From: an uncultured Bacteroidia bacterium | Lineage (GTDB): Bacteria; Bacteroidota; Bacteroidia; Bacteroidales; UBA932 | Length of the DNA: 34,683 nucleotides | Reading direction: 5' to 3' | Assembly (NCBI GenBank): GCA_902780175.1 | Contig: CACZEU010000017.1 | Coordinates: 1-34,683 of the forward strand | Shown here: in pieces, positions 4,210 through 14,208 of the stretch | How positions within the stretch are numbered: the stretch's first letter is position 1 | Layout of the letters: every line of letters starts with the position of its first letter | Made by a program: the position numbers and the translations under genes | Notes under the pieces: generated by a model | The model's input: the letters and a program-made list of their open reading frames with translations, nothing else | The model's database searches: none | What the model was told of the DNA's origin: nothing

Positions 4210-5121
4210 ATGAGTTTCCGTTTTTTCATTTTGGTTACAGCGATGGCAGTATCTTCTTCCTTGAACGCCCAGCAGTTCCTTCCGGTAAAGGGTATCGTAA
4301 ACGCCAGGGAACTGGGCGGTTACCCCGTGCAGGGCGGGACGGTCCGCAGCGGACTGCTCCTCCGGACGGCGCACCTGGCGGACGCTACGGACGCGGATAT
4401 CCGGTATCTATCCGGCCTGCCGGTGGTCAAGGTGATAGATTTCCGGATGGAAGAGGAAAAGAAGGGGTCTGCAGACAGGCAGGTCCCCGGCGCCGACCAC
4501 ATCGCACTCCCGGTCGATGCCAGCGGCAACGCCGCCGCGCAGGCCTCGGAGAAGGAGAAGAAGAGGTTCACCGGCGGCAGGAAGTTCGACTACAAGAAGA
4601 TAATCATGCTGGCGGCATTCAACAACCTCGCAAAGAAAATTGCCCGCGGGATGTATCCCACGCTGTTTTTCGACCCCGTCTGCCAGAAGCAGTATGCCGA
4701 ATTCTTCCGCATAGTACTGTCGACGGAAAACGGCGCCGTCCTGTTCCACTGCACCCAGGGAAAGGACCGTGCCGGCATAGCGTCCGCCCTTCTGCTGGCC
4801 GCACTTGGAGCCAGCAGGGAAACCATAATTGCCGACTTCGACGCCACCAACAGGGTCTATGAAGCCGACGTGCGAAAGTACACCCGCCGGGTAAAATTCT
4901 GGGGCGGCAAGGAAGAGGAGATCGGAGTAGTGAAAGCCATCCTGGGCTGCAACACAGACAACTTCGTGAAGGTCCTCGGCCGCATCGACGCCGAATACGG
5001 CTCACTGGAATCTTATCTGGAGAAAGCCCTTGGCGTCAGTGCTGCTGACAGGGAAGTGTTGCGGGGGAGGTATTTGTCCGTATCAGCTGACTCATCACAT
5101 ATTGACAAGTATGCCGAATAG
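4210..5121 (+). CDS. Exported tyrosine/serine protein phosphatase (Y_phosphatase3 type)
   Basis: This 303-residue protein has an N-terminal signal peptide (MSFRFFILVTAMAVSSSLNAQ). The family N-terminal signature G-I-V-N-A-R-E-L-G-G-Y and the phosphatase loop HCTQGKDRAG follow (Cys181, Arg187 of CX5R). By family it dephosphorylates phosphotyrosine, phosphoserine or phosphoinositides; export suggests a periplasmic or surface role. The last dozen codons (VSADSSHIDKYAE) run into sequence of different composition, and the stop overlaps the next gene by 11 bases. The natural C-terminus may therefore have been replaced where the accessory islet joined. Confidence 0.85.
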   Translation: MSFRFFILVTAMAVSSSLNAQQFLPVKGIVNARELGGYPVQGGTVRSGLLLRTAHLADATDADIRYLSGLPVVKVIDFRMEEEKKGSADRQVPGADHIALPVDASGNAAAQASEKEKKRFTGGRKFDYKKIIMLAAFNNLAKKIARGMYPTLFFDPVCQKQYAEFFRIVLSTENGAVLFHCTQGKDRAGIASALLLAALGASRETIIADFDATNRVYEADVRKYTRRVKFWGGKEEEIGVVKAILGCNTDNFVKVLGRIDAEYGSLESYLEKALGVSAADREVLRGRYLSVSADSSHIDKYAE

Positions 5122-7231
5122 ATGTTTATATATCTCGTCATTTGAGGATTTTTTGGAGGAAAATCCTCTGGCTGTTCTTGGTACCCTCCATAGCAATTAT
5201 CATGGCGAAGCACTGACAAGCACCGATGAAGCTTGGAAAGGCGAGATTGATATCTTGCAAGAAGTTCTACAGCCATGGAAAGATGAGGACGCTCAGATTA
5301 TCTTTGAATATGAGATTCCACGGCTTGGTAAACGAATTGATGTTGTCTTGCTCCTTCGTGGCATCATTTTTTGCCTGGAGTTCAAGGTGGGACAGAAGGA
5401 TGCTTTACAAGCTGATGTAGAACAGGTTATGGACTATGCGCTTGACCTGAAAAATTTCCACCGATTCAGCCATGATAGAGTGATTGTCCCGATCTTGATC
5501 CCAACCAGGCACAAGTCATCAACCAAAGAGTTCAAACCATCCGTTTATGAGGATCTGATTTACAATCCACTAATATGTGGAGCCGAACATCTTAAAGCAT
5601 TGATTGCGGGCGTTCTAGATCATGCTGATTCAAAGGATGCCTCAACCATCGACAATTGGGTAATCAGTCCTTACACTCCGACCCCCACTATTATCGAAGC
5701 GGCTCGGGCGCTCTATCAGAACCATTCTGTCGAGGACATAACGCGCCACGAGGCCGACAAGGTGTCTACAGACCGGACTATCAACTACATTCTGCGGGTC
5801 ATCGAGCAGAGCAAAACCGCGAAAAAGAAAAGTATCTGTTTCGTGACGGGAGTTCCTGGTGCAGGTAAGACGCTCGTTGGACTGGATGTAGCCGTAAAAC
5901 AAACTTACAGGAATGGTGAGTTGGACAAAGAAAACGGTGCCGTCTATTTGTCTGGGAACGGCCCTCTGGTGGCAGTCTTGACAGAGGCTTTGGCTCGTGA
6001 TAATCAGAAGAAGTGCTCTGCAAATGGAGAACGGAAAAACCTTTCGGATTCAAGGCGTGAAGTCAGCGAATTCATTCAGATCATTCATCGGTATCGTGAT
6101 AACATGCTGGCTAAAATTAAGAATCCAGTCGAGAATGGAATCGTAGAAATCGACCCCGAAAAGGCAATTCACCTGGAACACACAGGTTATGGAGAAGTGG
6201 AGCATGTCGCCATTTTCGATGAAGCGCAGCGAAGTTGGACCCATAAACGAATCGCCGAATACCTGAAACGCGGTGGTACGTATGGCAATAAGTTGAAAGT
6301 GCCTAACTTCCCGATGTCTGAGGCTGAATTCCTTATCTGGTCGTTGGATCAGCGGGAGGATTGGGCTGTCATTGTCTGTTTGGTAGGGGGCGGCCAGGAG
6401 ATTAACACCGGAGAGGCCGGCATTACAGAATGGATAAAGGCATTAAACTCCATGTTCCGGCATTGGGATGTATATATCTCCGACAAACTCACAGATCCGG
6501 AGTACGCAGAAGGCCATGTGAATGAATTGCTCCAGGGCAATGAAAAAGTGACATTCGCCGAGGATTTGCATCTTGCCGTCAGCTTGCGATCTTTCCGTGC
6601 AGAAACGCTTTCTGCATTCGTCCAATCCATGCTGGCCTTTCATTCTGATGCGTCCAGGCTCTATGAAGACGTTTCGGGCCGAGGTTATCCGATTGTGTTG
6701 ACACGAGATATGAATACGGCAAGAGAATGGCTAAGAAAGCAGGCGCGCGGCACGCAACAAACAGGTGTTCTTGTCACTAAAGTTGCAGCCCGTTTCAAGC
6801 CTCTGGCGGTACACATTCTGGCGCAGGATGAAGAAAATGCTGTGCATTGGTTCCTTGAAGACAAAACTGATATTCGATCCTCTAATTATCTGGAAGACGC
6901 CGCTACCGAGATTCAAGTTCAAGGACTAGAACTGGATTATGCATGTGTGCTTTGGGATGCCGATATGCGCTACGAAAACGGCTCCTGGGGATTCTATAAA
7001 TTCAACGGAAAGAATAAATGGAATCCCGAGAACAATCCAGAGAATCAAAAGTACATGCTAAACGCATACCGTGTTCTCCTGACCCGTGCCCGCCAGGGAA
7101 TCGTTATCTGTGTCCCTAATGGAAACAACCATCTTACACCAGAAGGATTTCCGGAGGATCCGACTCGCTTGCCTGAGTTCTACGACGGCACGTTTGAGTA
7201 TTTAAAAGGGTTGGGGATAGAGGTGATCTAG
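5111..7231 (+). CDS. PD-(D/E)XK nuclease-helicase fusion (DUF2075 type)
   Basis: This 706-residue protein starts at ATG 5111, inside the end of the phosphatase gene; longer frames would read that gene out of phase. The N-terminal part (about 1-200) shows a PD-(D/E)XK-like core: RIDVV (D77), then CLEFKVG (E90, K92). A P-loop helicase domain of the DUF2075/COG3410 family follows: Walker A GVPGAGKT (247-254), Walker B IFDEAQR (D370, E371), LVGGGQEINTGEAG, and the superfamily-1 motif VLLTRARQG near 655-663. Such fusions probably process DNA or RNA and occur in defence islands. It uses AT-richer codons than its left neighbour. Its biological target is unknown. Confidence 0.82.
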   Translation: MPNRCLYISSFEDFLEENPLAVLGTLHSNYHGEALTSTDEAWKGEIDILQEVLQPWKDEDAQIIFEYEIPRLGKRIDVVLLLRGIIFCLEFKVGQKDALQADVEQVMDYALDLKNFHRFSHDRVIVPILIPTRHKSSTKEFKPSVYEDLIYNPLICGAEHLKALIAGVLDHADSKDASTIDNWVISPYTPTPTIIEAARALYQNHSVEDITRHEADKVSTDRTINYILRVIEQSKTAKKKSICFVTGVPGAGKTLVGLDVAVKQTYRNGELDKENGAVYLSGNGPLVAVLTEALARDNQKKCSANGERKNLSDSRREVSEFIQIIHRYRDNMLAKIKNPVENGIVEIDPEKAIHLEHTGYGEVEHVAIFDEAQRSWTHKRIAEYLKRGGTYGNKLKVPNFPMSEAEFLIWSLDQREDWAVIVCLVGGGQEINTGEAGITEWIKALNSMFRHWDVYISDKLTDPEYAEGHVNELLQGNEKVTFAEDLHLAVSLRSFRAETLSAFVQSMLAFHSDASRLYEDVSGRGYPIVLTRDMNTAREWLRKQARGTQQTGVLVTKVAARFKPLAVHILAQDEENAVHWFLEDKTDIRSSNYLEDAATEIQVQGLELDYACVLWDADMRYENGSWGFYKFNGKNKWNPENNPENQKYMLNAYRVLLTRARQGIVICVPNGNNHLTPEGFPEDPTRLPEFYDGTFEYLKGLGIEVI

Positions 7232-7389: not shown

Positions 7390-7620
7390 CAACCGAATGC
7401 TCTTTCCATCGTAAAAACCATCGACGAACTCAAAATATCTCTTGAGCAGACTAAAACCCGCAAGGTTGGAATCAATAAGAAGCAGCTCGGTGTCAACAGC
7501 ACGACTCTTTGGCGTTGGGATTAGGAAAAAAACCTTTGCTCCGTCAAAATCGGAGCGCTACGAAGATACCATCAAAGAGACATCGACGCATTGAAAGTCA
7601 AACGCGGGGGCTGGCGATAA
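7390..7620 (+). pseudogene. Excisionase-like helix-turn-helix protein, interrupted by a stop
   Basis: One frame reads K-K-Q-L-G-V-N-S-T-T-L-W-R-W-D, then TAG (7522-7524), then V-K-I-G-A-L-R-R-Y-H-Q-R-D-I-D-A-L to TAA at 7618. Together these match the winged HTH_17/MerR-like excisionase fold (recognition helix, then R-R-Y-x-x-x-D-I-D-A-L). The same frame has no ATG or GTG start after the upstream TAG at 7387, so both start and continuity are lost. Proteins of this type often belong to mobile elements, which suits the setting. Confidence 0.6.
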
Positions 7621-7635
7621 ACATCCTCCGCTATT

Positions 7636-7665
7636 CCATTGTCCCACCTCTCCCAATTGTCCCAC
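7636..7665. repeat. Short direct repeat
   Basis: CCATTGTCCCAC (7636-7647) and CAATTGTCCCAC (7654-7665) are 12-base copies with one mismatch, 18 bases apart. They sit between the HTH remnant and the XRE-EVE promoter. This may be a protein-binding site; function unknown. Confidence 0.4.
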
Positions 7666-7715
7666 ACCTTTTTAGGAACCAGACATGATTATAGAGATAT
7701 AATTCGCTTGTATAA

Positions 7716-7746
7716 TTTGCAAATTGAATTATTCTTTCTATATTTG
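7716..7746 (+). promoter_or_regulatory. Consensus promoter of the XRE-EVE/CoiA unit
   Basis: TTTG at 7716-7719, exactly 19 bases, then TATATTTG at 7739-7746, a full match to the Bacteroidota promoter. Transcription would start near 7753, about 40 bases before the start codon. Confidence 0.75.
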
Positions 7747-7765
7747 CTCCCGTAATACAGATTTA

Positions 7766-7778
7766 GGGGAAATTCCCC
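7766..7778. promoter_or_regulatory. Palindrome in the leader, candidate autoregulatory operator
   Basis: GGGGAAATTCCCC is a perfect inverted repeat of 6-base arms around one A. It lies just after the expected transcription start and 16 bases before the start codon of a gene coding an XRE-type DNA-binding protein. Operator function is inferred. Confidence 0.5.
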
Positions 7779-7794
7779 GTAGCTATTGAGTATT

Positions 7795-8709
7795 ATGGAA
7801 ATATTAACTAAAGTCAAATTCGTCAGCCTGAATAAGGTGACGGTTGAAACGCCACAAGGTGACCGTTTCACAGTGGGACTAAATAGGGTAGTCCCCATGC
7901 CACTTCAAGAGCAAAACGCTCGTGTCATTGCTTACCTCTTCGACAAATACTACAAAGGAGACCCTTCCGTCATCATGGGACCGATTTATCGGGAGATGAT
8001 TGTGAATGGCTGTTGGGCTGCACCATATTGGTACGGGCCAGATCGTGACAATGAACGTGAGCGAATCGGAGCCCAGATCCGCGCCCTGCGTGAAGAGCGC
8101 CGTCTGGAAGCCAAAGAGTTGGCGGAATACGCCGACATCGATGCCTCCAACCTTTCCCGCATCGAGAAGGGGAAGTTTTCTCCTGGTCTTGATGTTCTTT
8201 GCAAAATTGCTGCAGCTATGGATTGTTCCGTTGAGATTGTTCCGATTGGTGCTGCCAGCAATCATTATGAGATTCACCGCGCCGCCCGTGCAATTCCGGA
8301 GGAGCATCGCAGCCTGATGATTACCGCCAAGAATTCCACTTTCCGCCTGGCGGATTGCCTGGCAAAATATGGCGAATACCACTGGCAACAGACGCGCTAC
8401 AATATCAACATAGGGGATATCGTTTATGTCTATGTGTCTGAAGACCGTGCAATCAAGTATAAGATGACGGTAGAGCAGGTCGATGAACCTTATGACCGCT
8501 GGATGGCAAAGGAAGAGGAATTCTGGGTAGACAAAGGTCGTATTACGGATGAATCCCAGACTAAATACGCCCTCCTTCGTCTGGTTAAAGAATCCCGTTC
8601 CGGCAAGCTCACCGAGGAGAATCTTATGAAACATGGCTTCCTCCGAGCCCCTCAGGGCGTCAAGTATCTGGAGGGGGAGCTCCTTAAGTACATTGAGAGG
8701 AAGTTTTAG
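7795..8709 (+). CDS. XRE-family HTH protein fused to an EVE/PUA-like domain
   Basis: This 304-residue protein starts at ATG 7795; a TTG nine bases upstream is less likely. Residues 1-85 form an unrecognised N-terminal region. Residues about 88-150 are an XRE/Cro helix-turn-helix (IGAQIRALREERRLEAKELA, then ASNLSRIEKGKFSPGLDVLCKIAAAM). Residues about 178-304 resemble the EVE/PUA-like reader domain found beside HNH nucleases: NSTFRLADCLAKYGEYHW, then N-I-N-I-G-D-I-V-Y-V-Y-V, Y-K-M-T-V-E-Q-V-D-E-P-Y and a closing LMKHGFLRAPQG motif. EVE-type domains bind modified bases, so this may be a regulator that senses modified nucleic acid. The next gene starts 2 bases after its stop, so the two form an operon. 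The EVE call comes from motif recall only. Confidence 0.75.
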   Translation: MEILTKVKFVSLNKVTVETPQGDRFTVGLNRVVPMPLQEQNARVIAYLFDKYYKGDPSVIMGPIYREMIVNGCWAAPYWYGPDRDNERERIGAQIRALREERRLEAKELAEYADIDASNLSRIEKGKFSPGLDVLCKIAAAMDCSVEIVPIGAASNHYEIHRAARAIPEEHRSLMITAKNSTFRLADCLAKYGEYHWQQTRYNINIGDIVYVYVSEDRAIKYKMTVEQVDEPYDRWMAKEEEFWVDKGRITDESQTKYALLRLVKESRSGKLTEENLMKHGFLRAPQGVKYLEGELLKYIERKF

Positions 8710-8711
8710 CC

Positions 8712-9701
8712 ATGGGTTCCTTTTTGACCTTTGCGTTGGATGAAAGCGATGCTCTCGTCCACGTCGATGATGTTGCCAAAGGCAATAACTGTAAGTCCCA
8801 CTGTCCGCATTGCGGTGCTCCTCTATGTGCTAAGAATGCCGGTCAATGGCGAAAACATCATTTTGCTCACGCTCACGGACATGAATGTGAGGGAGCGTAT
8901 GAATCCCAGCTCCATCTCCTCGCAAAAGAGGTTTTACAAGAGGCTGGGAGAATAATGCTTCCCGCTTCAGATCGTGGTCGTTTCCCGTCGGGCTCGGTCC
9001 GCATCCGTAATGTTGAGGTTGAGAAATGGGATGACCGCTATAGTATCCGGCCAGATGCCGAAGGCATAATGGAAAACGGGGAGAGACTGTTGATAGAATT
9101 CTACGTAAGCCACAAAGTAGATGGCAAGAAGCGGCAGGTAATCGTCGACAATCATCTCAAATGCATAGAGATAGATATCAACTACCAGGCGCTCGACAAG
9201 CAAGAGTTGAAGGAATTCCTCTGCGAATCTAATGAGGATCGCAAATGGATAGTGTCGATGCCTCCACCGTCCAAACCAGCAGGAGAATCCTTCAGTTACA
9301 GTAGAAATCCAATGTACGAGAAGACAATAGACATTCTCAAGGAAATCTTCGATGAGGGCACCATTACCATCCATCCGTTTGCTTCGTCATTCTCCAAAAA
9401 GAACAAGCCATTCAATCTCCGCGAGGTTGGTTATGACGTATGTGAGGTCAATACGAAGTGGAGGGGCTTCAAATCTGATTTGCTCCTATACCGGAGCCAG
9501 AAAGATAATAAGGGACACATATCAATCAACATTCGGGGTAGAAGGCGATGGGATGGCTTTCGCTACCCCAAAGGTCTCAGAATAATCGACATTGTATTTT
9601 ATGCCATCGGAACCGAAGAGAGCACCAGGCAGCGGCTGAAAGATGGCGACCTAGTTGGAGACTTGGGAATGAAGATAGAATACTTCGGATTCAAAGCATA
9701 A
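8712..9701 (+). CDS. CoiA-like nuclease with zinc-finger N-terminus
   Basis: This is a 329-residue protein. The N-terminus carries a CoiA-type zinc-binding module: C31-P-H-C34, HHFAHAHGHEC (49-59), then SQLHLLAKEVL. A PD-(D/E)XK-like nuclease core follows: IRPDAEG (D115), LLIEFYVSHKVDG (E129, K135). CoiA proteins are competence-linked or defence-linked predicted nucleases. About 150 further residues (from about 180) include a second conserved-looking block ending in GFRYPKGLRIIDIVFYAIG, which I do not recognise. It is translated with the XRE-EVE gene (2-base gap) and probably controlled by it. Confidence 0.75.
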   Translation: MGSFLTFALDESDALVHVDDVAKGNNCKSHCPHCGAPLCAKNAGQWRKHHFAHAHGHECEGAYESQLHLLAKEVLQEAGRIMLPASDRGRFPSGSVRIRNVEVEKWDDRYSIRPDAEGIMENGERLLIEFYVSHKVDGKKRQVIVDNHLKCIEIDINYQALDKQELKEFLCESNEDRKWIVSMPPPSKPAGESFSYSRNPMYEKTIDILKEIFDEGTITIHPFASSFSKKNKPFNLREVGYDVCEVNTKWRGFKSDLLLYRSQKDNKGHISINIRGRRRWDGFRYPKGLRIIDIVFYAIGTEESTRQRLKDGDLVGDLGMKIEYFGFKA

Positions 9702-9711
9702 GAAAAAACAC

Positions 9712-9719
9712 TACCTTTG
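9712..9719 (+). promoter_or_regulatory. Orphan -7 element
   Basis: TACCTTTG matches TAnnTTTG. The only start codon nearby (9733) opens a 13-codon frame, so this looks like the promoter of a lost gene. Confidence 0.35.
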
Positions 9720-9783
9720 TATTTGTAACTATATGAGAAGTAAGAACATGAGAGTATTTTTCTTGGTGAAATAATTACTGTAC

Positions 9784-9879
9784 TCATACTTCACAGCTTT
9801 CCAGCTCTTTGACGATCTGGGCGATGACTCCAGGTATCATCGCAACATTTACCTTACCCATCCTGCCTAAGGTAGTCAT
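9784..9879 (-). pseudogene. Possible C-terminal gene remnant
   Basis: A 31-codon frame reads MTTLGRMGKVNVAMIPGVIA and ends QIVKELESCEV. The frame stays open to an upstream TAA near 9918. The helical ending looks like a real protein C-terminus, but I cannot name the family. The rest of the 9702-10031 gap holds the orphan -7 element and the CCCGAA repeats, and no other gene is visible. Confidence 0.25.
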
Positions 9880-9899
9880 GAAGTTGTTATATACATTCT

Positions 9900-9950
9900 C
9901 CCGAAAAAAAACATACTTTTACCCGAAAATTTTATCAACTTTTTCCCGAA
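9900..9950. repeat. Three phased CCCGAA repeats
   Basis: CCCGAA occurs at 9900, 9922 and 9945, that is every 22-23 bases (two helical turns), in an AT-rich stretch. On the minus strand the units read TTCGGG. They may be operator or element-end sites. Confidence 0.4.
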
Positions 9951-10031
9951 TTGATTGTCTTTACCTCGGAAAATGCTTGATATAGAAGGATATAAGCATA
10001 GAATGTGCTCATCGGCATAGGCGAAAAATGC

Positions 10032-10126
10032 CTACCGCCGGGACGATGTTGTGTACGTGGTCCCTTTGAACACGTGCTCGTTGAAGAACTCAGAATACTT
10101 TTTATTGTGCATGTCGGAGCCGGTCC
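10032..10126 (-). pseudogene. C-terminal remnant of a second CpsB-type phosphatase
   Basis: The minus-strand frame reads G-S-D-M-H-N-K-K-Y-S-E-F-F-N-E-H-V-F-K-G and reaches a stop at 10032. This closely parallels the end of the intact phosphatase at 10638-11282 (GSDLHNKKYSAFFDEYVFG). Only about 31 codons remain; the copy is cut at 10127, where unrelated WYL sequence begins. Confidence 0.65.
10068..10126. repeat. 59-bp repeat, copy A
   Basis: This is about 90% identical (6 mismatches by eye) to 10644-10702 in the same orientation. Most differences are silent or conservative in the CpsB frame, so the copy is a diverged paralogue and not a recent duplication. Confidence 0.7.
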
Positions 10127-10127
10127 C

Positions 10128-10290
10128 TTCTCGCGAGGACGGTAAGTGGGTGCTGCGCTCGACGGTTCAAGCCCTGGAAGGTGTTGGAAGGTTTGTGATT
10201 GGACTGGCGGCGGATGTGAAGATTGTGGAGGGGAAGAAGCTGGTGGAATATGTGAGAAGGTACGATAAGAAGTGGGTGCAGAAGATATAA
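10128..10290 (+). pseudogene. C-terminal remnant of a WYL-domain regulator
   Basis: The frame from GKWVLRSTVQALEGVGRFVI to TAA at 10288 matches the C-terminal extension of WYL-domain transcription regulators (G-V-G-R-F-V-x-G-L then V-K-I-V-E-x-x-x-L-x-E-Y). The rest of the gene is missing. Upstream bases belong to the antisense CpsB fragment, so an ATG at 10051 in this frame is spurious. Confidence 0.5.
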
Positions 10291-10292
10291 GA

Positions 10293-10313
10293 ATCCCCGG
10301 ACGGGCCGGGGAT
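10293..10313. terminator. Hairpin between two convergent gene remnants
   Basis: Stem ATCCCCGG/CCGGGGAT with loop ACGGG. There is no T-tract, so intrinsic termination is doubtful. Confidence 0.4.
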
Positions 10314-10321
10314 GAGAATGC

Positions 10322-10618
10322 TTATTCGGGGAATACCCAGTGGCCTGTCTTGCTGGCTCCATCCCAGTGGATTCCCATTTCATCTTTAAGGATTCGCAGG
10401 TGATACTTGATACCTGTAAGGTTTACGTTACAAAGGTCGGCGAGCTCCTGCCTACTAATGGTGGGGGTAGCTCTCATGATGCGAATCATCTTTGTACGTA
10501 GCTCAGGACCTTTTTCCTTGCGATTTTTGGGGTTAGTTTTGGGGTTAGTTTCATTACTAACCTCACCCGCCTTTCCACCTCTCTTTACGGATCTGCCTAC
10601 CTTCGGCCGACAGTAAGT
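10322..10618 (-). pseudogene. C-terminal winged-helix remnant of an AlbA_2/ATPase regulator
   Basis: The minus-strand frame includes NETNPKTNPKNRK and ISRQELADLCNVNLTGIKYH, and ends KTGHWVFPE. It has the same layout as the C-terminus of the intact gene at 14656-16149 (repeat linker, winged helix, N-G-G-H-W-I-L-L-E-P). Frame and stop are intact, but the AlbA_2 and ATPase domains are missing and the frame runs upstream into the antisense of the cpsB-like gene. The linker holds two identical 12-base units (10525-10536, 10537-10548). Confidence 0.6.
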
Positions 10619-10637
10619 AACGGTGGGGCAGAAGAAA

Positions 10638-11282
10638 CTATCCGAATACGTACTCGTCGAAGAACGCGGAATACTTTTTATTGTGCAGGTCGGAGCCGGT
10701 CCAGTCGTACATGCCTTCGGCGTCCAGAGTCTTTGCACGGGCGGAGACGGCATCGCCGTACATTCCTTCCAGGGCTCCCAGATTGCGCTGGAACTGGACG
10801 CCGGCGTCCTTGAAGGCCCGGTATTCCTCCATCCGGAGGTATAGATATCGTTCCGGATGCGCCAGGACGGGCTGGTAGCCGTTGTCCAGCAGCCAGCGCA
10901 TCTCGGCGAGGGGGATGATGTCGCCGATCTTCGCCGGATCGTGTATGGGGAGTTCTACCAGGATATGATTCCCTTCCCACGGCAGGAGCCAGTTGCTTTC
11001 GCGTACAACCGGCCAGGTTTCGGGTATGAGGCGGTACTCCATCGAGGGGACCAGTTCGAGCCCGATTCCTCTTTGCTCCAGGGCTTGTCTGAGTTTGTCG
11101 GCCGCAGCCCTTACGGTTGCCGGAGTGTTCCGGTACAGGAATGAACAATGGGATGTGCAGACTGCCCGCCGGTAGCCCCATTCCACCAGTTTCCCGGCAA
11201 GAAAGACGGAATCTTCCAGCGTCTGCGCCCCGTCGTCCAGCCCGGGGAGGATATGGCAATGGCAGTCGACCAGCACACTCAT
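10638..11282 (-). CDS. CpsB/YwqE-type PHP tyrosine-protein phosphatase
   Basis: This 214-residue member of the PHP metal-dependent family usually removes phosphate from capsule-regulating tyrosine kinases. Metal-binding motifs are visible: DCHCHILPGLDDG (H8, H10), CTSHCSF, SMEYR, HILVELP, LAHPERY and TGSDLHN. It is somewhat shorter than the roughly 250-residue norm. No capsule genes are near. The promoter faces the DUF4298 gene in a divergent arrangement. Its last 59 coding bases are duplicated at 10068-10126. Confidence 0.85.
   Translation of the reverse strand: MSVLVDCHCHILPGLDDGAQTLEDSVFLAGKLVEWGYRRAVCTSHCSFLYRNTPATVRAAADKLRQALEQRGIGLELVPSMEYRLIPETWPVVRESNWLLPWEGNHILVELPIHDPAKIGDIIPLAEMRWLLDNGYQPVLAHPERYLYLRMEEYRAFKDAGVQFQRNLGALEGMYGDAVSARAKTLDAEGMYDWTGSDLHNKKYSAFFDEYVFG
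10644..10702. repeat. 59-bp repeat, copy B (inside the CpsB-type gene)
   Basis: Partner of 10068-10126; this copy is part of the intact gene. The two copies flank the WYL and AlbA_2 remnants. Confidence 0.7.
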
Positions 11283-11304
11283 GTCCTTATTTGTTTGATG
11301 GCAT

Positions 11305-11341
11305 CAAATTTAGTTATTTTCCGCGAAATGCAGTATTTTTG
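11305..11341. promoter_or_regulatory. Divergent -7 elements for the CpsB-type and DUF4298 genes
   Basis: TAAATTTG on the minus strand (11312 to 11305) faces the phosphatase gene, leaving a leader of about 16 bases. TATTTTTG on the plus strand (11334-11341) faces DUF4298. No clear -33 elements are seen. Confidence 0.55.
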
Positions 11342-11362
11342 CATGAACAGACCGGCACGTAT

Positions 11363-11659
11363 ATGGACACCAGGCAACGAATAGCAAGAATCCGGAAAAT
11401 GGAGACCCGTTTCGAGCGGGTCAAAAAAGCGGTTGAGGCCCTTCACCGGGACCTGGACAGGTATGAGAAACTCCTCGGGAGTGTCGGGGAGTTGGAACGG
11501 TATCAGGAATCCGGCCTGTGGAAGGAGGATTTTGAGGCCGATGAACGGGGCGAACTGCCCGACGGCCTCCGGCGCGGCGTACTCTCCGAAGACGGACTGT
11601 ATGACCTGCTGGAGGACATTTCTGAATTGAATGCCAGGATGACTCTCAGTCGAAAGTGA
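11363..11659 (+). CDS. DUF4298 family protein
   Basis: This 98-residue, highly charged, mostly helical protein starts at ATG 11363. The motifs IRKMETRFERV, ELERYQESGLWKEDFEADE and LPDGLRRGVLSEDGLYDLLE are characteristic of DUF4298, whose function is unknown. The long frame upstream crosses the promoter and the antisense of the phosphatase, so it was not used. Its 3' end overlaps that of the convergent greA-like gene by 14 bases. Confidence 0.85.
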   Translation: MDTRQRIARIRKMETRFERVKKAVEALHRDLDRYEKLLGSVGELERYQESGLWKEDFEADERGELPDGLRRGVLSEDGLYDLLEDISELNARMTLSRK

Positions 11660-12113
11660 TGCTTTCGACTCTCAGGCGCATGGTCCCCGAAGGGGCGGTG
11701 ACCTCGGCGGTTTCGCCGACTCTCTTGCCCATCAGGGCTGCGCCGATCGGGGATTTAAGCGAAATCTTGCCGGCCTCCAGATCCATCTCGTGCGGGCTGA
11801 CGATTTCGAATTTCATACGTGTATTTGTCGAGAGGTTCGTGAATTCGACCCGGCTCAGCAGGCTGACCCTGTCTTTGGGGAGGCGGTCCTGGTCGATTAC
11901 GCGGGAATGCTCCAGGATCTTCTGCAGGAAACGGATACGGCTGATGGTCTTCCCCTGGATGCGCCTCGCTTCACGGTATCCGGCATTGTCGCTCCGGTCG
12001 CCCTGGGCGCTGGCCTCCGCGAGGTCGTCTTTCACCTTAGGGTAGACTACCTCGATAAGGTGGTGCAATTCGGCTGCAATCTCGTCGTATCGTTGTTTTG
12101 ACAGGTATTCCAT
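11646..12113 (-). CDS. greA: Transcription elongation factor GreA/GreB family
   Basis: This 155-residue protein has an N-terminal coiled coil (about 1-75) and a C-terminal FKBP-like domain. The coil tip, which enters the RNA polymerase secondary channel to stimulate cleavage of backtracked RNA, reads AQGDRSDNAGYREARR. It keeps an acidic pair (D-x-x-D) and is closer to the GreB form (GDRSEN) than to the usual GreA DLSENAEY. The C-terminal KISLKSPIGAALMGKRVGE block is canonical. A TATCTTTA sequence at 12142-12135 may be its -7 element. Confidence 0.9.
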   Translation of the reverse strand: MEYLSKQRYDEIAAELHHLIEVVYPKVKDDLAEASAQGDRSDNAGYREARRIQGKTISRIRFLQKILEHSRVIDQDRLPKDRVSLLSRVEFTNLSTNTRMKFEIVSPHEMDLEAGKISLKSPIGAALMGKRVGETAEVTAPSGTMRLRVESITFD

Positions 12114-12230
12114 ATGCGGACATGTTTGACGGAGTAAAGATAATCATTTCTGCACAAGTCTGCATCGTGACTTATCAAGACCAGGGACTGCTTCTGTTTC
12201 TGCGCCTTCACCAGCTTGCGATACTCGGAC

Positions 12231-12383
12231 ATGGCCAACCTGAAGCACCTCTGCCAGCTGGTAGGCTTCAACACGCCCATCACCAAGATCTATCTGGAGA
12301 CCTCGCAGTGCGGCCGGAAACTCTACGAATCGGCCGGATTCACCGCCATGAAGGACATGATGCTCCTGACCTACGGAAAATAA
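12231..12383 (+). pseudogene. C-terminal remnant of a GNAT acetyltransferase
   Basis: The 50-codon frame includes ITKIYLETSQCGRKLYESAG and MKDMMLLTYGK, the last strand-helix-strand of the GNAT fold (I-x-L-E-T-S, G-R-x-L-Y-E-x-x-G-F). The acetyl-CoA-binding motif and the N-terminal half are absent, and sequence upstream to 12113 codes nothing recognisable. Not expected to be active. Confidence 0.6.
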
Positions 12384-12386
12384 TGC

Positions 12387-12394
12387 TAACTTTG
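12387..12394 (+). promoter_or_regulatory. -7 element six bases before the esterase start
   Basis: TAACTTTG ends 6 bases before ATG 12401, so the transcript should start at or next to the start codon (leaderless mRNA). Confidence 0.6.
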
Positions 12395-12400
12395 CAGCCT

Positions 12401-13090
12401 ATGAGCCACGTAATCACGAATATAGGAGGTCGGGAATGTTTCATCATCGCAGATGCCTCCCCAAAGTACATTCTCATTCAGACGCTTGGAAACCATGAAC
12501 GGGGGATTTTTGAAAGCACGGCTCAGTTGATTGCGGAAGATACCGGGGTGCATTTTGTCATGGCCGCTTTCCAAATATTTGACTGGGACCTGGACCTGAC
12601 GCCCTGGCATGACCCCGCCATCAACCGCGACCCGAAAGTGGGAACGATGACCGGCGAGACGCTCAAATATGTCACAGAGTCTCTGCTGCCGCTCCTTTCG
12701 GAACGGTTCGGAGACCTGCCCATCATCCTGGGCGGCTATTCCCTTGGCGGACTCTTCGCCCTATGGTCGGCCACGCAGACGGACCGTTTTGCCGCCATTG
12801 CAGCCGCCTCGCCCTCTTTGTGGATACGGGACTGGCTGGACTTTGCGGGGGAGCACCCTGTCCTGACAAAGAAGGTCTATCTGAGTCTTGGAGATCAGGA
12901 AGAGCACGTGAAGAACCGTTCCATCGCCCGGGTCGGGGAGAGCGTCAGGGGCGAATACGAACTGCTGAAAAGCCAGATCGGCACGGAGAACAGCACGCTG
13001 GTATGGAATCCCGGCGGTCATTTCCAGGACGGAGACAAACGCCTTGCAGCAGCCTTCGTCTGGTGCATTGGCCAACTTGAGAAACAGTGA
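12401..13090 (+). CDS. Alpha/beta-hydrolase, esterase D-like
   Basis: This 229-residue cytoplasmic hydrolase has no signal peptide. The nucleophile elbow is GGYSLGG (Ser114). SLGDQEEH probably supplies the acid and NPGGHF the catalytic His. The overall form fits the putative esterase family (PF00756) that includes esterase D and enterochelin esterases. The substrate is unknown. The start was set by the short distance to the -7 element; the longer upstream frame crosses the GNAT remnant out of phase. Confidence 0.78.
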   Translation: MSHVITNIGGRECFIIADASPKYILIQTLGNHERGIFESTAQLIAEDTGVHFVMAAFQIFDWDLDLTPWHDPAINRDPKVGTMTGETLKYVTESLLPLLSERFGDLPIILGGYSLGGLFALWSATQTDRFAAIAAASPSLWIRDWLDFAGEHPVLTKKVYLSLGDQEEHVKNRSIARVGESVRGEYELLKSQIGTENSTLVWNPGGHFQDGDKRLAAAFVWCIGQLEKQ

Positions 13091-13148
13091 AAGACATCTA
13101 CACATACAAATTCTGGAAGCACAAGTATGGGTAGGTGTATGTGGATAA

Positions 13149-13361
13149 AGAATTGGGAAATGGGCCAAGAAATATATCCTGGACGTGGTTTTCGACGAGG
13201 CCTGTCGCAGACTTCTCTATACGGTCGCTACAATAGACGAAATAGCCGATGCCATGGGCTTCGAAACTTCTACATACTTTATCAGGACCTTTCACACACG
13301 CTACGGGGTCACACCCCTTCAATTCCGCAAACAAGATGAAAATCCAAGAAATCGAGGTTAA
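13149..13361 (+). pseudogene. C-terminal HTH remnant of an AraC-family regulator
   Basis: After an in-frame TAA at 13146 the frame reads KKYILDVVFDEACRRLLYTV, then IDEIADAMGFETSTYFIRTF and YGVTPLQFRK. This is the second helix-turn-helix of AraC proteins. The sensor domain and the first HTH are missing. Its end overlaps the start of the radical SAM gene by 26 bases, which suggests the two were once an operon. Confidence 0.65.
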
Positions 13362-14208
13362 AACCGTCCTCACCAAATCCAACCTTCCGGTATCGGACTA
13401 TGCCGTAAACCCCTATGTGGGCTGCCTCCATGCCTGCAAGTACTGTTACGCCTCTTTCATGAAGCGTTTCACCGGGCATCAGGAGCCCTGGGGGACCTTT
13501 CTGGACGTAAAGAACTGGCCGGAGGTCAAGGACCCTTCCAAATACCGGGGCAAGGAACTGTTCCTGAGTTCCGTCACGGACCCGTATCAGCCCCATGAGG
13601 CCAAGTACAAGCGCACCCGGGCCATTCTGGAGCAGATGCAGGGCAGCGGATGTAAGATAAGCATTTCCACCAAGAGCGACCTCATCCTCCGGGACCTGGA
13701 CCTCATCAAGACCTTCCCGGATGCCCGTGTATCCTGGTCTATCAACACACTGGACGATGATTTTCAGAAGGCGATGGACAAGGGCGTGAGCATCGAGCGT
13801 CGCCTGGGAGCCATGCGGCAGTTCTACGAGGCCGGGGTGCAGACCACCTGCTTCATTTCGCCCATTTTCCCCGGCATCACGGACGTGGAGGCCATCATCG
13901 AACGGGCCAAAGGGCAGTGCAACCTGGTGTGGCTGGAAAACCTGAACCTTCGTGGCGATTACCGTCCTGTCATCCTGGACTGGATACACGAGAACCATCC
14001 TGAACTGGATGGACTCTATCATGCCATCTATTCAAAGAAGGACCGCAGTTATTGGACGGAGCTTGACCTGAAGCTTCGGGAATACACGGCCCGAGAAGGA
14101 ATGCTCTATGTCCGGGACGATGACAGCCAGCGCAGTCCCTTTGGTCAGCCGCCCGTCGTAGCCAATTACTTCTATCACGAGGAGGTGAAGAAATCGGCCA
14201 AGAAATAA
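13336..14208 (+). CDS. SPL-family radical SAM protein (spore photoproduct lyase-like)
   Basis: This 290-residue protein starts at ATG 13336. The [4Fe-4S] cluster motif is CLHACKYCYA (C30, C34, C37), followed by FLSSVTDPYQPHEAKYKRTR, ISTKSDLILRDLDLI and VSWSINTLDD. This is the pattern of the SplB-like radical SAM group (COG1533), widespread in gut anaerobes. The true reaction is unknown for most members, so DNA photoproduct repair should not be assumed. The overlapping AraC remnant upstream may be its former regulator. Confidence 0.85.
   Translation: MKIQEIEVKTVLTKSNLPVSDYAVNPYVGCLHACKYCYASFMKRFTGHQEPWGTFLDVKNWPEVKDPSKYRGKELFLSSVTDPYQPHEAKYKRTRAILEQMQGSGCKISISTKSDLILRDLDLIKTFPDARVSWSINTLDDDFQKAMDKGVSIERRLGAMRQFYEAGVQTTCFISPIFPGITDVEAIIERAKGQCNLVWLENLNLRGDYRPVILDWIHENHPELDGLYHAIYSKKDRSYWTELDLKLREYTAREGMLYVRDDDSQRSPFGQPPVVANYFYHEEVKKSAKK

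Follow-up and report, generated by a model that had tools for sequence, protein, structure and literature searches.

A contig of 34,683 nucleotides from an uncultured bacterium of the Bacteroidales lineage UBA932 (CACZEU010000017.1; the whole stretch is referred to here as the window) carries on its forward strand a gene for an XRE regulator (7795–8709, 304 aa) and, separated from it by 2 bases, a gene for a CoiA-like nuclease (8712–9701, 329 aa). On balance, this pair appears to represent one version of a mobile cassette of two genes, which occurs chiefly in Bacteroidales of the gut and rumen. Its autoregulated control gene would govern an exchangeable nuclease directed against foreign DNA. 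As judged from sequence comparisons, a constant module, composed of an inverted repeat at the −33 promoter element, a leader and the XRE gene, is followed by a variable module from one of at least four unrelated families, and the cassette occupies unrelated genomic places. If this is true, effector diversity in a defence system arises by swapping whole genes behind a fixed control module, and the swap is visible between almost identical regulators. An initial annotation of the region had described two closely spaced genes preceded by a promoter and a 13-base palindrome, all of which are located in the sequence. It had further proposed an XRE-EVE fusion together with a CoiA-type nuclease as a possible defence unit, a view that is not sustained by the wider family.

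One regulator gene with several partners

The family was surveyed by scanning 84,980 species genomes with a profile of the aligned N-terminal and XRE domains. As the genome scan used only two short peptide patterns, which yielded 169 stretches and 68 confirmed loci, divergent members have been missed. The loci come from Bacteroidetes groups (66) and from Clostridiales or Clostridia (2, L096 and L100), many of them from rumen or gut assemblies. When open reading frames (ORFs) are called by a simple longest-ORF rule, 65 of the 68 loci contain a same-strand partner ORF whose start lies anywhere from 22 bases ahead of the end of the XRE stop codon to 21 bases past it. Grouping of these partners by all-against-all BLAST (single linkage at 1e-4, with Pfam run on examples only) results in a CoiA-like family of 32, an HNH-type family of 27, in which all four tested members match HNH_3 by Pfam, and two families of 4 and 2 members without a Pfam match over the cut-off. 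Profile comparison revealed no relationship among the four families; a CoiA-like core that had initially been suspected in the third was rejected on this ground. No methyltransferase was found among the partner families examined. Three loci (L062, L075, L089) lack a recognisable partner. The partner is truncated by a contig end in L057, L086 and L102, short in L098 and split in L106, and the XRE gene itself is truncated or short in L073, L077, L092, L098, L099 and L111.

The EVE-like domain that forms the C-terminus of the window's regulator is missing from 57 of the 68 related loci. It occurs in the remaining 11, nine of which pair with CoiA and two with HNH (L103, L105), so that, with the window counted, a CoiA-like gene is the partner in 10 of the 12 loci that bear the domain. 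The adjacency of the two genes is thus genuinely recurrent, with CoiA-like partners in 32 of the 68 XRE loci. Since most loci do without the EVE-like domain and other families also follow the XRE gene, the unit is better described as XRE plus any of several effectors. The same picture emerges within the window's order: among 295 genomes searched, 13 have a match to the regulator, which spans its full length in just two of them, the genome of the window and G178. G139, G232 and G142 match its N-terminal half, and the rest match the helix-turn-helix (HTH) or the EVE-like part alone. The first two of these three carry an XRE-CoiA pair without the EVE-like part, and in G142 an HNH nuclease replaces CoiA (three of these genomes recur in the survey under other names: G139 is L080, G232 is L044 and G178 is L104).

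Partner exchange is, to judge from the following comparisons, both recent and frequent. The XRE-EVE protein of the window, with its CoiA partner, and that of L105, with an HNH partner, are 97% identical, and their DNA is 90% similar from position −95 to 6 bases beyond the XRE stop, where the similarity ends. On a tree of 67 XRE rows (rows below 150 aa excluded, the rest trimmed to the first 165 residues; window, L112, L113 and L164 added), the partner label requires 19 changes by parsimony, and for the CoiA label at least 8 changes are forced by strongly supported branches alone; some long branches leave placements on this tree unsure. Shuffled labels need more changes (mean 24.9; 19 or fewer in 2 of 200), which indicates that partners are inherited, but weakly.

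The borders of the exchanged DNA can be read from 475 pairs among 64 loci, which are not independent of one another. In 270 of these, DNA similarity begins between −105 and −86. Among 231 pairs with different partners, 205 lose their similarity within an interval that reaches from 30 bases ahead of the XRE stop to 19 bases past it. These start and end points place the left edge of the mobile unit at the repeat and the exchange point at the XRE stop. At odds with such a left edge, 77 of the 475 pairs become similar only from the start codon (−5 to +4) onwards. The right edge is, by the same comparison, less sharp: among 213 pairs with the same partner, 43 similarities end within 40 bases of the partner stop, 12 extend by more than 60 bases and the others end inside the partner gene.

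Partner exchange also bears on an obvious alternative, namely that the pair is a type II toxin-antitoxin system in which the XRE protein neutralises the adjacent nuclease as its toxin. Gene order, spacing and the promoter repeat fit this idea, the HTH resembles HigA, PezA and HipB by sequence or fold, and the XRE gene is kept in the three loci without a recognisable partner. Unrelated nucleases behind near-identical XRE proteins are, however, hard to square with specific toxin binding. This favours control of expression over direct inhibition of each nuclease and argues against a strict toxin-antitoxin pair, which is accordingly regarded as unlikely. Transcriptional control alone could still make the cassette toxin-antitoxin-like.

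Promoter, putative operator and leader RNA

The promoter of the pair (7716–7746, forward strand) consists of TTTG at 7716–7719, a 19-base spacer and TATATTTG at 7739–7746. The same layout recurs in many relatives and is presumably of the Bacteroidetes type, i.e. the Bacteroides consensus. Its −33 element is overlapped by a weak copy (7706–7725, forward strand, 14 of 20 matches) of the inverted repeat AATTGGCAAATTTGCCAATT, which is likely to be the operator. Upstream regions were compared for 68 sequences, namely 64 of the surveyed loci together with the window, L112, L113 and L164. In 57 of them this repeat reaches at least 15 of 20 matches, compared with 13 of 1360 dinucleotide shuffles, and the window's copy sits 33 bases ahead of TAnnTTTG, the spacing usual among relatives. 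The 13-base palindrome GGGGAAATTCCCC (7766–7778, forward strand), which the initial annotation had singled out for a binding test with the XRE domain, was rejected as the operator: near relatives vary the length of its centre and keep the stem, distant ones hold another hairpin at this place, and the conserved inverted repeat is the one at the −33 element.

Instead, GGGGAAATTCCCC forms the inner hairpin, with six-base arms around one base, of a structured leader (7751–7797, forward strand) whose outer stem pairs 7751–7758 with 7790–7797 and includes the start codon. In near relatives the inner loop measures 3–5 bases and the stem is retained. Such variation of the centre with conservation of the stem is expected of an RNA rather than of a protein-bound palindrome. 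The fold of 7753–7797 has a z-score of −2.16 (7 of 200 shuffles as good), and five leaders of the EVE-bearing clade fold better than shuffles (z −2.16 to −3.35) with the outer stem present in all; the inner part adopts a different register in L103 and L104. Across 10 distinct sequences of this clade, all 110 of 110 cells in 8 outer and 3 inner stem pairs are paired, and 7 cells are changed on both sides compared with 2.7 in shuffles (0 of 500 as high). The outer stem is significant in all 11 EVE-clade leaders (p≤0.015) and in 20 of 57 loci overall (p≤0.05), being frequent in leaders of the GTGGGGTGCACCAC type and not in those of the GTGGCGRCAACAC type.

In many other loci, GTGGCGRCAACAC takes the place of the hairpin, with an A-rich stretch and then CGGY behind it. 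The exact GTGGCGRCAACAC motif occurs in 26 of 164 loci, a set that consists mostly of DNA around XRE genes, and once in each: 25 times in an XRE leader and once (L111) just ahead of an XRE ORF. In 28 GTGGCGRCAACAC-type leaders (23 distinct), 95.7% of stem cells are paired, one stem pair appears as A-U, G-C, G-U, U-A, C-G and U-G, and both sides differ in 10 cells, where shuffles give 1.7 (none of 500 reaches 10). The underlying alignment A12 consists of 28 loci that fit a GTGGCG-type pattern; alignment A11 (47 of 65 leaders) gave no counts. A third arrangement, a GTGGGGTGCACCAC-like hairpin followed by AAAAACG, was observed at the GTGGCGRCAACAC place in L044–L050, L052, L053, L055–L057, L062, L063, L068 and L069, with stems that by eye vary in a compensatory fashion.

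Several observations speak against these assignments of operator and leader. The window's operator copy is weak, since 77 of 1360 shuffles equal its 14 matches, the close relatives L105 and L104 reach only 13 and 12 of 20, and the loci on which the consensus was scored are also its source. One leader of the GTGGCG type (z −0.91) and one of the GTGGGG type (z −1.66) fold little better than shuffles. When pairs rather than cells are counted, double changes affect 2 pairs in the EVE clade (248 of 500 shuffles as high) and a single pair in the GTGGCGRCAACAC type (359 of 500), and relatedness of the sequences can inflate the other covariation measures. Separately from these points, searches of five loci against Rfam at gathering level returned one match, a tRNA, and no leader family at threshold; a lax search of 7600–8000 in the window gave two matches, both far below their gathering scores. 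A strict leader pattern matched none of 393 genomes of the order, among them the cassette-bearing G139, G142, G178 and G232, so that this search had no positive control.

Taking the favoured reading of an autoregulated cassette, the XRE protein would bind the −33 repeat and repress its own operon. In the window's clade, pairing of the leader with the start codon may keep translation of the regulator and, by coupling, of the nuclease low, which would add a layer of RNA control. Entry of foreign DNA, or the time soon after transfer, could then lower repression, whereupon the nuclease would attack the invader. More tentatively, the cassette may work as a plug-board for defence, with one mobile control module that takes several nucleases and in which the leader RNA, or a reader of modified bases added to the regulator, serves as the infection sensor that frees the nuclease.

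The EVE-like domain and the CoiA-like nuclease

The window's regulator is composed of an N-terminal domain of about 85 residues (~1–84), the XRE HTH (~91–150), which is the best-conserved stretch among relatives and matches HTH_3 at residues 95–147 (Pfam, E 1.5e-11), and a C-terminal domain of about 130 residues (176–304, encoded at 8320–8706, forward strand). It is profile comparison, by way of stand-alone relatives, and not Pfam that marks this last domain as EVE-like; the fusion proposed in the initial annotation thus stands in this qualified form. Pfam detected no match to PF01878 (EVE) with E up to 1 in the window protein, the C-terminal domain alone, L033, L034, L042 or L041. Ten EVE-like sequences compared with five real EVE proteins, all from the window's own order, gave P 7.5e-5 over 128 columns with a probability of 34%, or, at default settings, P 5.8e-5 over 106 columns with 66%; the match scored 33.7, compared with 20.4 for the best of 200 column shuffles (0 of 200 as high). 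The link is provided by stand-alone relatives of 130–137 aa (L033, L034, L042), since stand-alone members match the EVE proteins (P 3.9e-6) and also the window's clade (P 1.7e-24). The window's clade alone was not detected by the EVE profile at default settings (probability 0.8%). A structure model was of use to neither side: AlphaFold confidence is below 50 across residues 145–304 bar one residue, the alignment being too shallow for conclusions on fold or pocket. A further relative, L041, joins the EVE-like domain to an HNH nuclease (HNH E 8.9e-7). Of 178 plasmid records that match it, 4 cover at least 80% of L041, and all four are annotated as HNH endonuclease.

On the XRE tree, the EVE-like domain was gained once. 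It therefore is, as far as the tree can tell, a single late addition to a wider XRE family, and EVE as the core of the system was rejected. In the window's clade, this addition could make the repressor responsive to modified bases: phage DNA with modified bases would titrate the repressor off its operator and so free the CoiA-like nuclease. If true, the window offers a test case in which a modified-base reader is placed in the repressor, not in the nuclease.

The partner protein had been described as a CoiA-type PD-(D/E)XK nuclease. The window protein itself matches Pfam CoiA_N below the cut-off (E 0.0036), but its relatives L030, L036, L038, L044 and L082 exceed it (L030 with 45.9 bits against 26.3). 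A Cys/His cluster is followed by a core with conserved E64, D115, E129 and H134, and among 21 CoiA-like sequences the invariant residues include C31, C34, H50, H53, E64, H68, D115, E129 and H134. Against a canonical PD-(D/E)XK site, no lysine stands at its usual place (E+2), even though D115 and E129 are invariant in the 21 sequences. For CoiA itself, however, a PD-EXQ motif is described (PMC1189080). A structure model of the window protein is of low confidence (mean pLDDT, the predicted local distance difference test, of 53). Foldseek searches with this model reached E 0.033 at best and gave nothing at E≤0.001; the first 13 rows are, judged in part from entry names, nucleases or nuclease complexes. 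In the close relative L106, the CoiA-like gene (8915–9924) is split across two reading frames, and is for this reason probably broken or misassembled.

Similarity to CoiA_N might suggest that the protein serves competence or DNA uptake. HNH or other families, however, replace CoiA behind the same regulator, and relatives are found in prophage-like contigs and, with HNH, on a plasmid, which makes a competence function very improbable.

Genomic context and relation to known systems

A wider search for the XRE module located it in 2 of 345 genomes of the phylum, the window's own included, and in 3 of 338 genomes of the order of G542. Within the latter, the distant member G542 (L167) combines a perfect operator and a leader with an HNH_2 partner 49 bases behind XRE, G1035 carries an XRE-HNH pair and G843 shows no intact partner. 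The genes beside the pair of G1035 look like DarTG. On a Chryseobacterium plasmid, a pair 5 bp apart is annotated as a helix-turn-helix regulator and an HNH endonuclease. Among 20 viral-contig matches, two (L112, L113) hold XRE-HNH amid what appear by eye to be phage structural genes, and the rest match in the HTH only.

Given their positions between unrelated genes and amid phage structural genes, the cassettes might also be selfish homing elements, whose nuclease cuts empty sites for repair to spread the cassette and whose XRE protein limits the damage. When compared with the homing-endonuclease models of PADLOC, 3 of 3 HNH partners gave a match. The CoiA-like partners gave none, and flanks differ even between close cassettes, so that no fixed target is seen. 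A homing function is therefore considered improbable.

Instead, the cassette probably defends against invading DNA. A nuclease-helicase with a Schlafen group 3 helicase domain is encoded upstream in the window (5111–7231, forward strand) and matches PADLOC PDC-S41 (E 2.1e-246), making it a candidate defence gene. Its presence had been taken to strengthen the defence reading; it adjoins the cassette in 3 of 12 EVE-bearing loci (the window, L103 and L104, the latter two with 52% and 74% identity) and in two arrangements, 2 of the other 9 loci being without upstream sequence. It is probably a system separate from the cassette. Between this gene and the promoter, the stretch 7400–7640 contains no ORF of at least 90 aa and could represent gene remains.

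Among neighbouring proteins, one with RuvC_1 and REC1 domains as well as GmrSD, ResIII and UvrD domains were found. By Pfam, helicase, methylase and GmrSD families are, among the first 25 families listed, more numerous near the cassette than in controls, with N6_N4_Mtase in 2 of 109 neighbours. The neighbours were drawn from 335 genes called within three genes either side and reduced for similarity; the controls were 109 of 123 proteins from 19 stretches and are not truly random, since all come from contig number 5 of the order's genomes. Counter to a defence role, many cassettes sit between housekeeping genes, the XRE protein matched no phage record, and PADLOC, used to score the neighbours for defence genes, did not separate the 109 neighbours from the 109 controls (165 and 146 families, tallied as families and not as per-protein counts). 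Control proteins even include Gabija, Old, AriA and methyltransferase matches.

Certain loci show large genes directly behind the pair. In L101, a 1273-aa SEC-C protein (9240–13061) follows an XRE-EVE/CoiA pair, and about 500 residues of its C-terminal part match anti-phage Upx with E 2.7e-40, far below the family cut-off; L097 has a gene behind its pair (9918–13739) that is similar when compared by eye. In L067, a seemingly Cas12a-like gene (10005–13772) lies directly behind XRE-HNH, and the REC1/RuvC_1 neighbour was assigned to this locus by eye.

Among characterised systems, restriction-modification operons with C proteins such as C.BclI and C.AhdI likewise have an XRE autoregulator ahead of the nuclease. 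The cassette could thus contain a C-protein-like timer, in which XRE delays nuclease expression after transfer and senses nothing. This overlaps with the preferred explanation and is a possible if doubtful account in its own right. By profile and fold, the XRE domain is similar to C.AhdI and C.BclI, and by fold to C.Esp1396I (fold E >0.001); the cassettes occupy different genomic places, and the HNH part of the L167 partner has a match to a modification-dependent nuclease. In contrast to C-protein systems, the cassette includes no methyltransferase, has extra domains and a structured leader, and uses several unrelated nucleases; C proteins are not known to carry extra domains of the kind seen here.

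The closest PDB match of the L167 partner is 6YEX (E 5e-7, HNH part only), the EVE-HNH modification-dependent endonuclease VcaM4I, which is described together with TspA15I (PMC7897488). Such enzymes resemble the family discussed here in that a PUA-like reader occurs together with a nuclease, as in the L041 fusion. They differ from the window's pair, where the reader forms part of a DNA-binding regulator and a separate gene encodes the nuclease, a CoiA-like protein. According to another study, XRE-ASCH fusions occur in PIN-GNAT-EVE toxin-antitoxin operons (PMC7641849); these differ by having ASCH where the window has EVE, and in their partners. A selection for anti-phage systems in E. coli recovered a CoiA-domain protein (Vassallo et al. 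2022, PMC9519451), which likewise places a CoiA-type domain in phage defence; the text on that protein mentions neither an exchangeable partner nor an XRE-EVE regulator. A literature search, mostly of open papers, returned no description of an XRE cassette with exchangeable CoiA/HNH partners and no paper that combines an EVE domain and CoiA.

If the cassette is what it appears to be, the region downstream of the XRE gene provides a handle for unknown nuclease or toxin families, of which two have already come to light. One, of about 275 aa, comprises L078 8498–9322, L085 4003–4827, L092 372–1196 and L107 8486–9316; L078 has no PADLOC, NCBIfam or over-cut-off Pfam match, and profile comparison links the family to none of the other partners. 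The second, recognised by eye from an HFF-RY-ER motif, consists of L059 9611–10405, L064 2129–2917, L065 9611–10414, L073 9409–10068, L070 8508–9188 and L084 8497–9237. L070 and L084 gave no Pfam match over the cut-off and no PADLOC match, and L059 and L084 no NCBIfam match. Its members occur either as the XRE partner or, in four loci, in third position after a CoiA or HNH gene, and possibly represent another toxin or nuclease.

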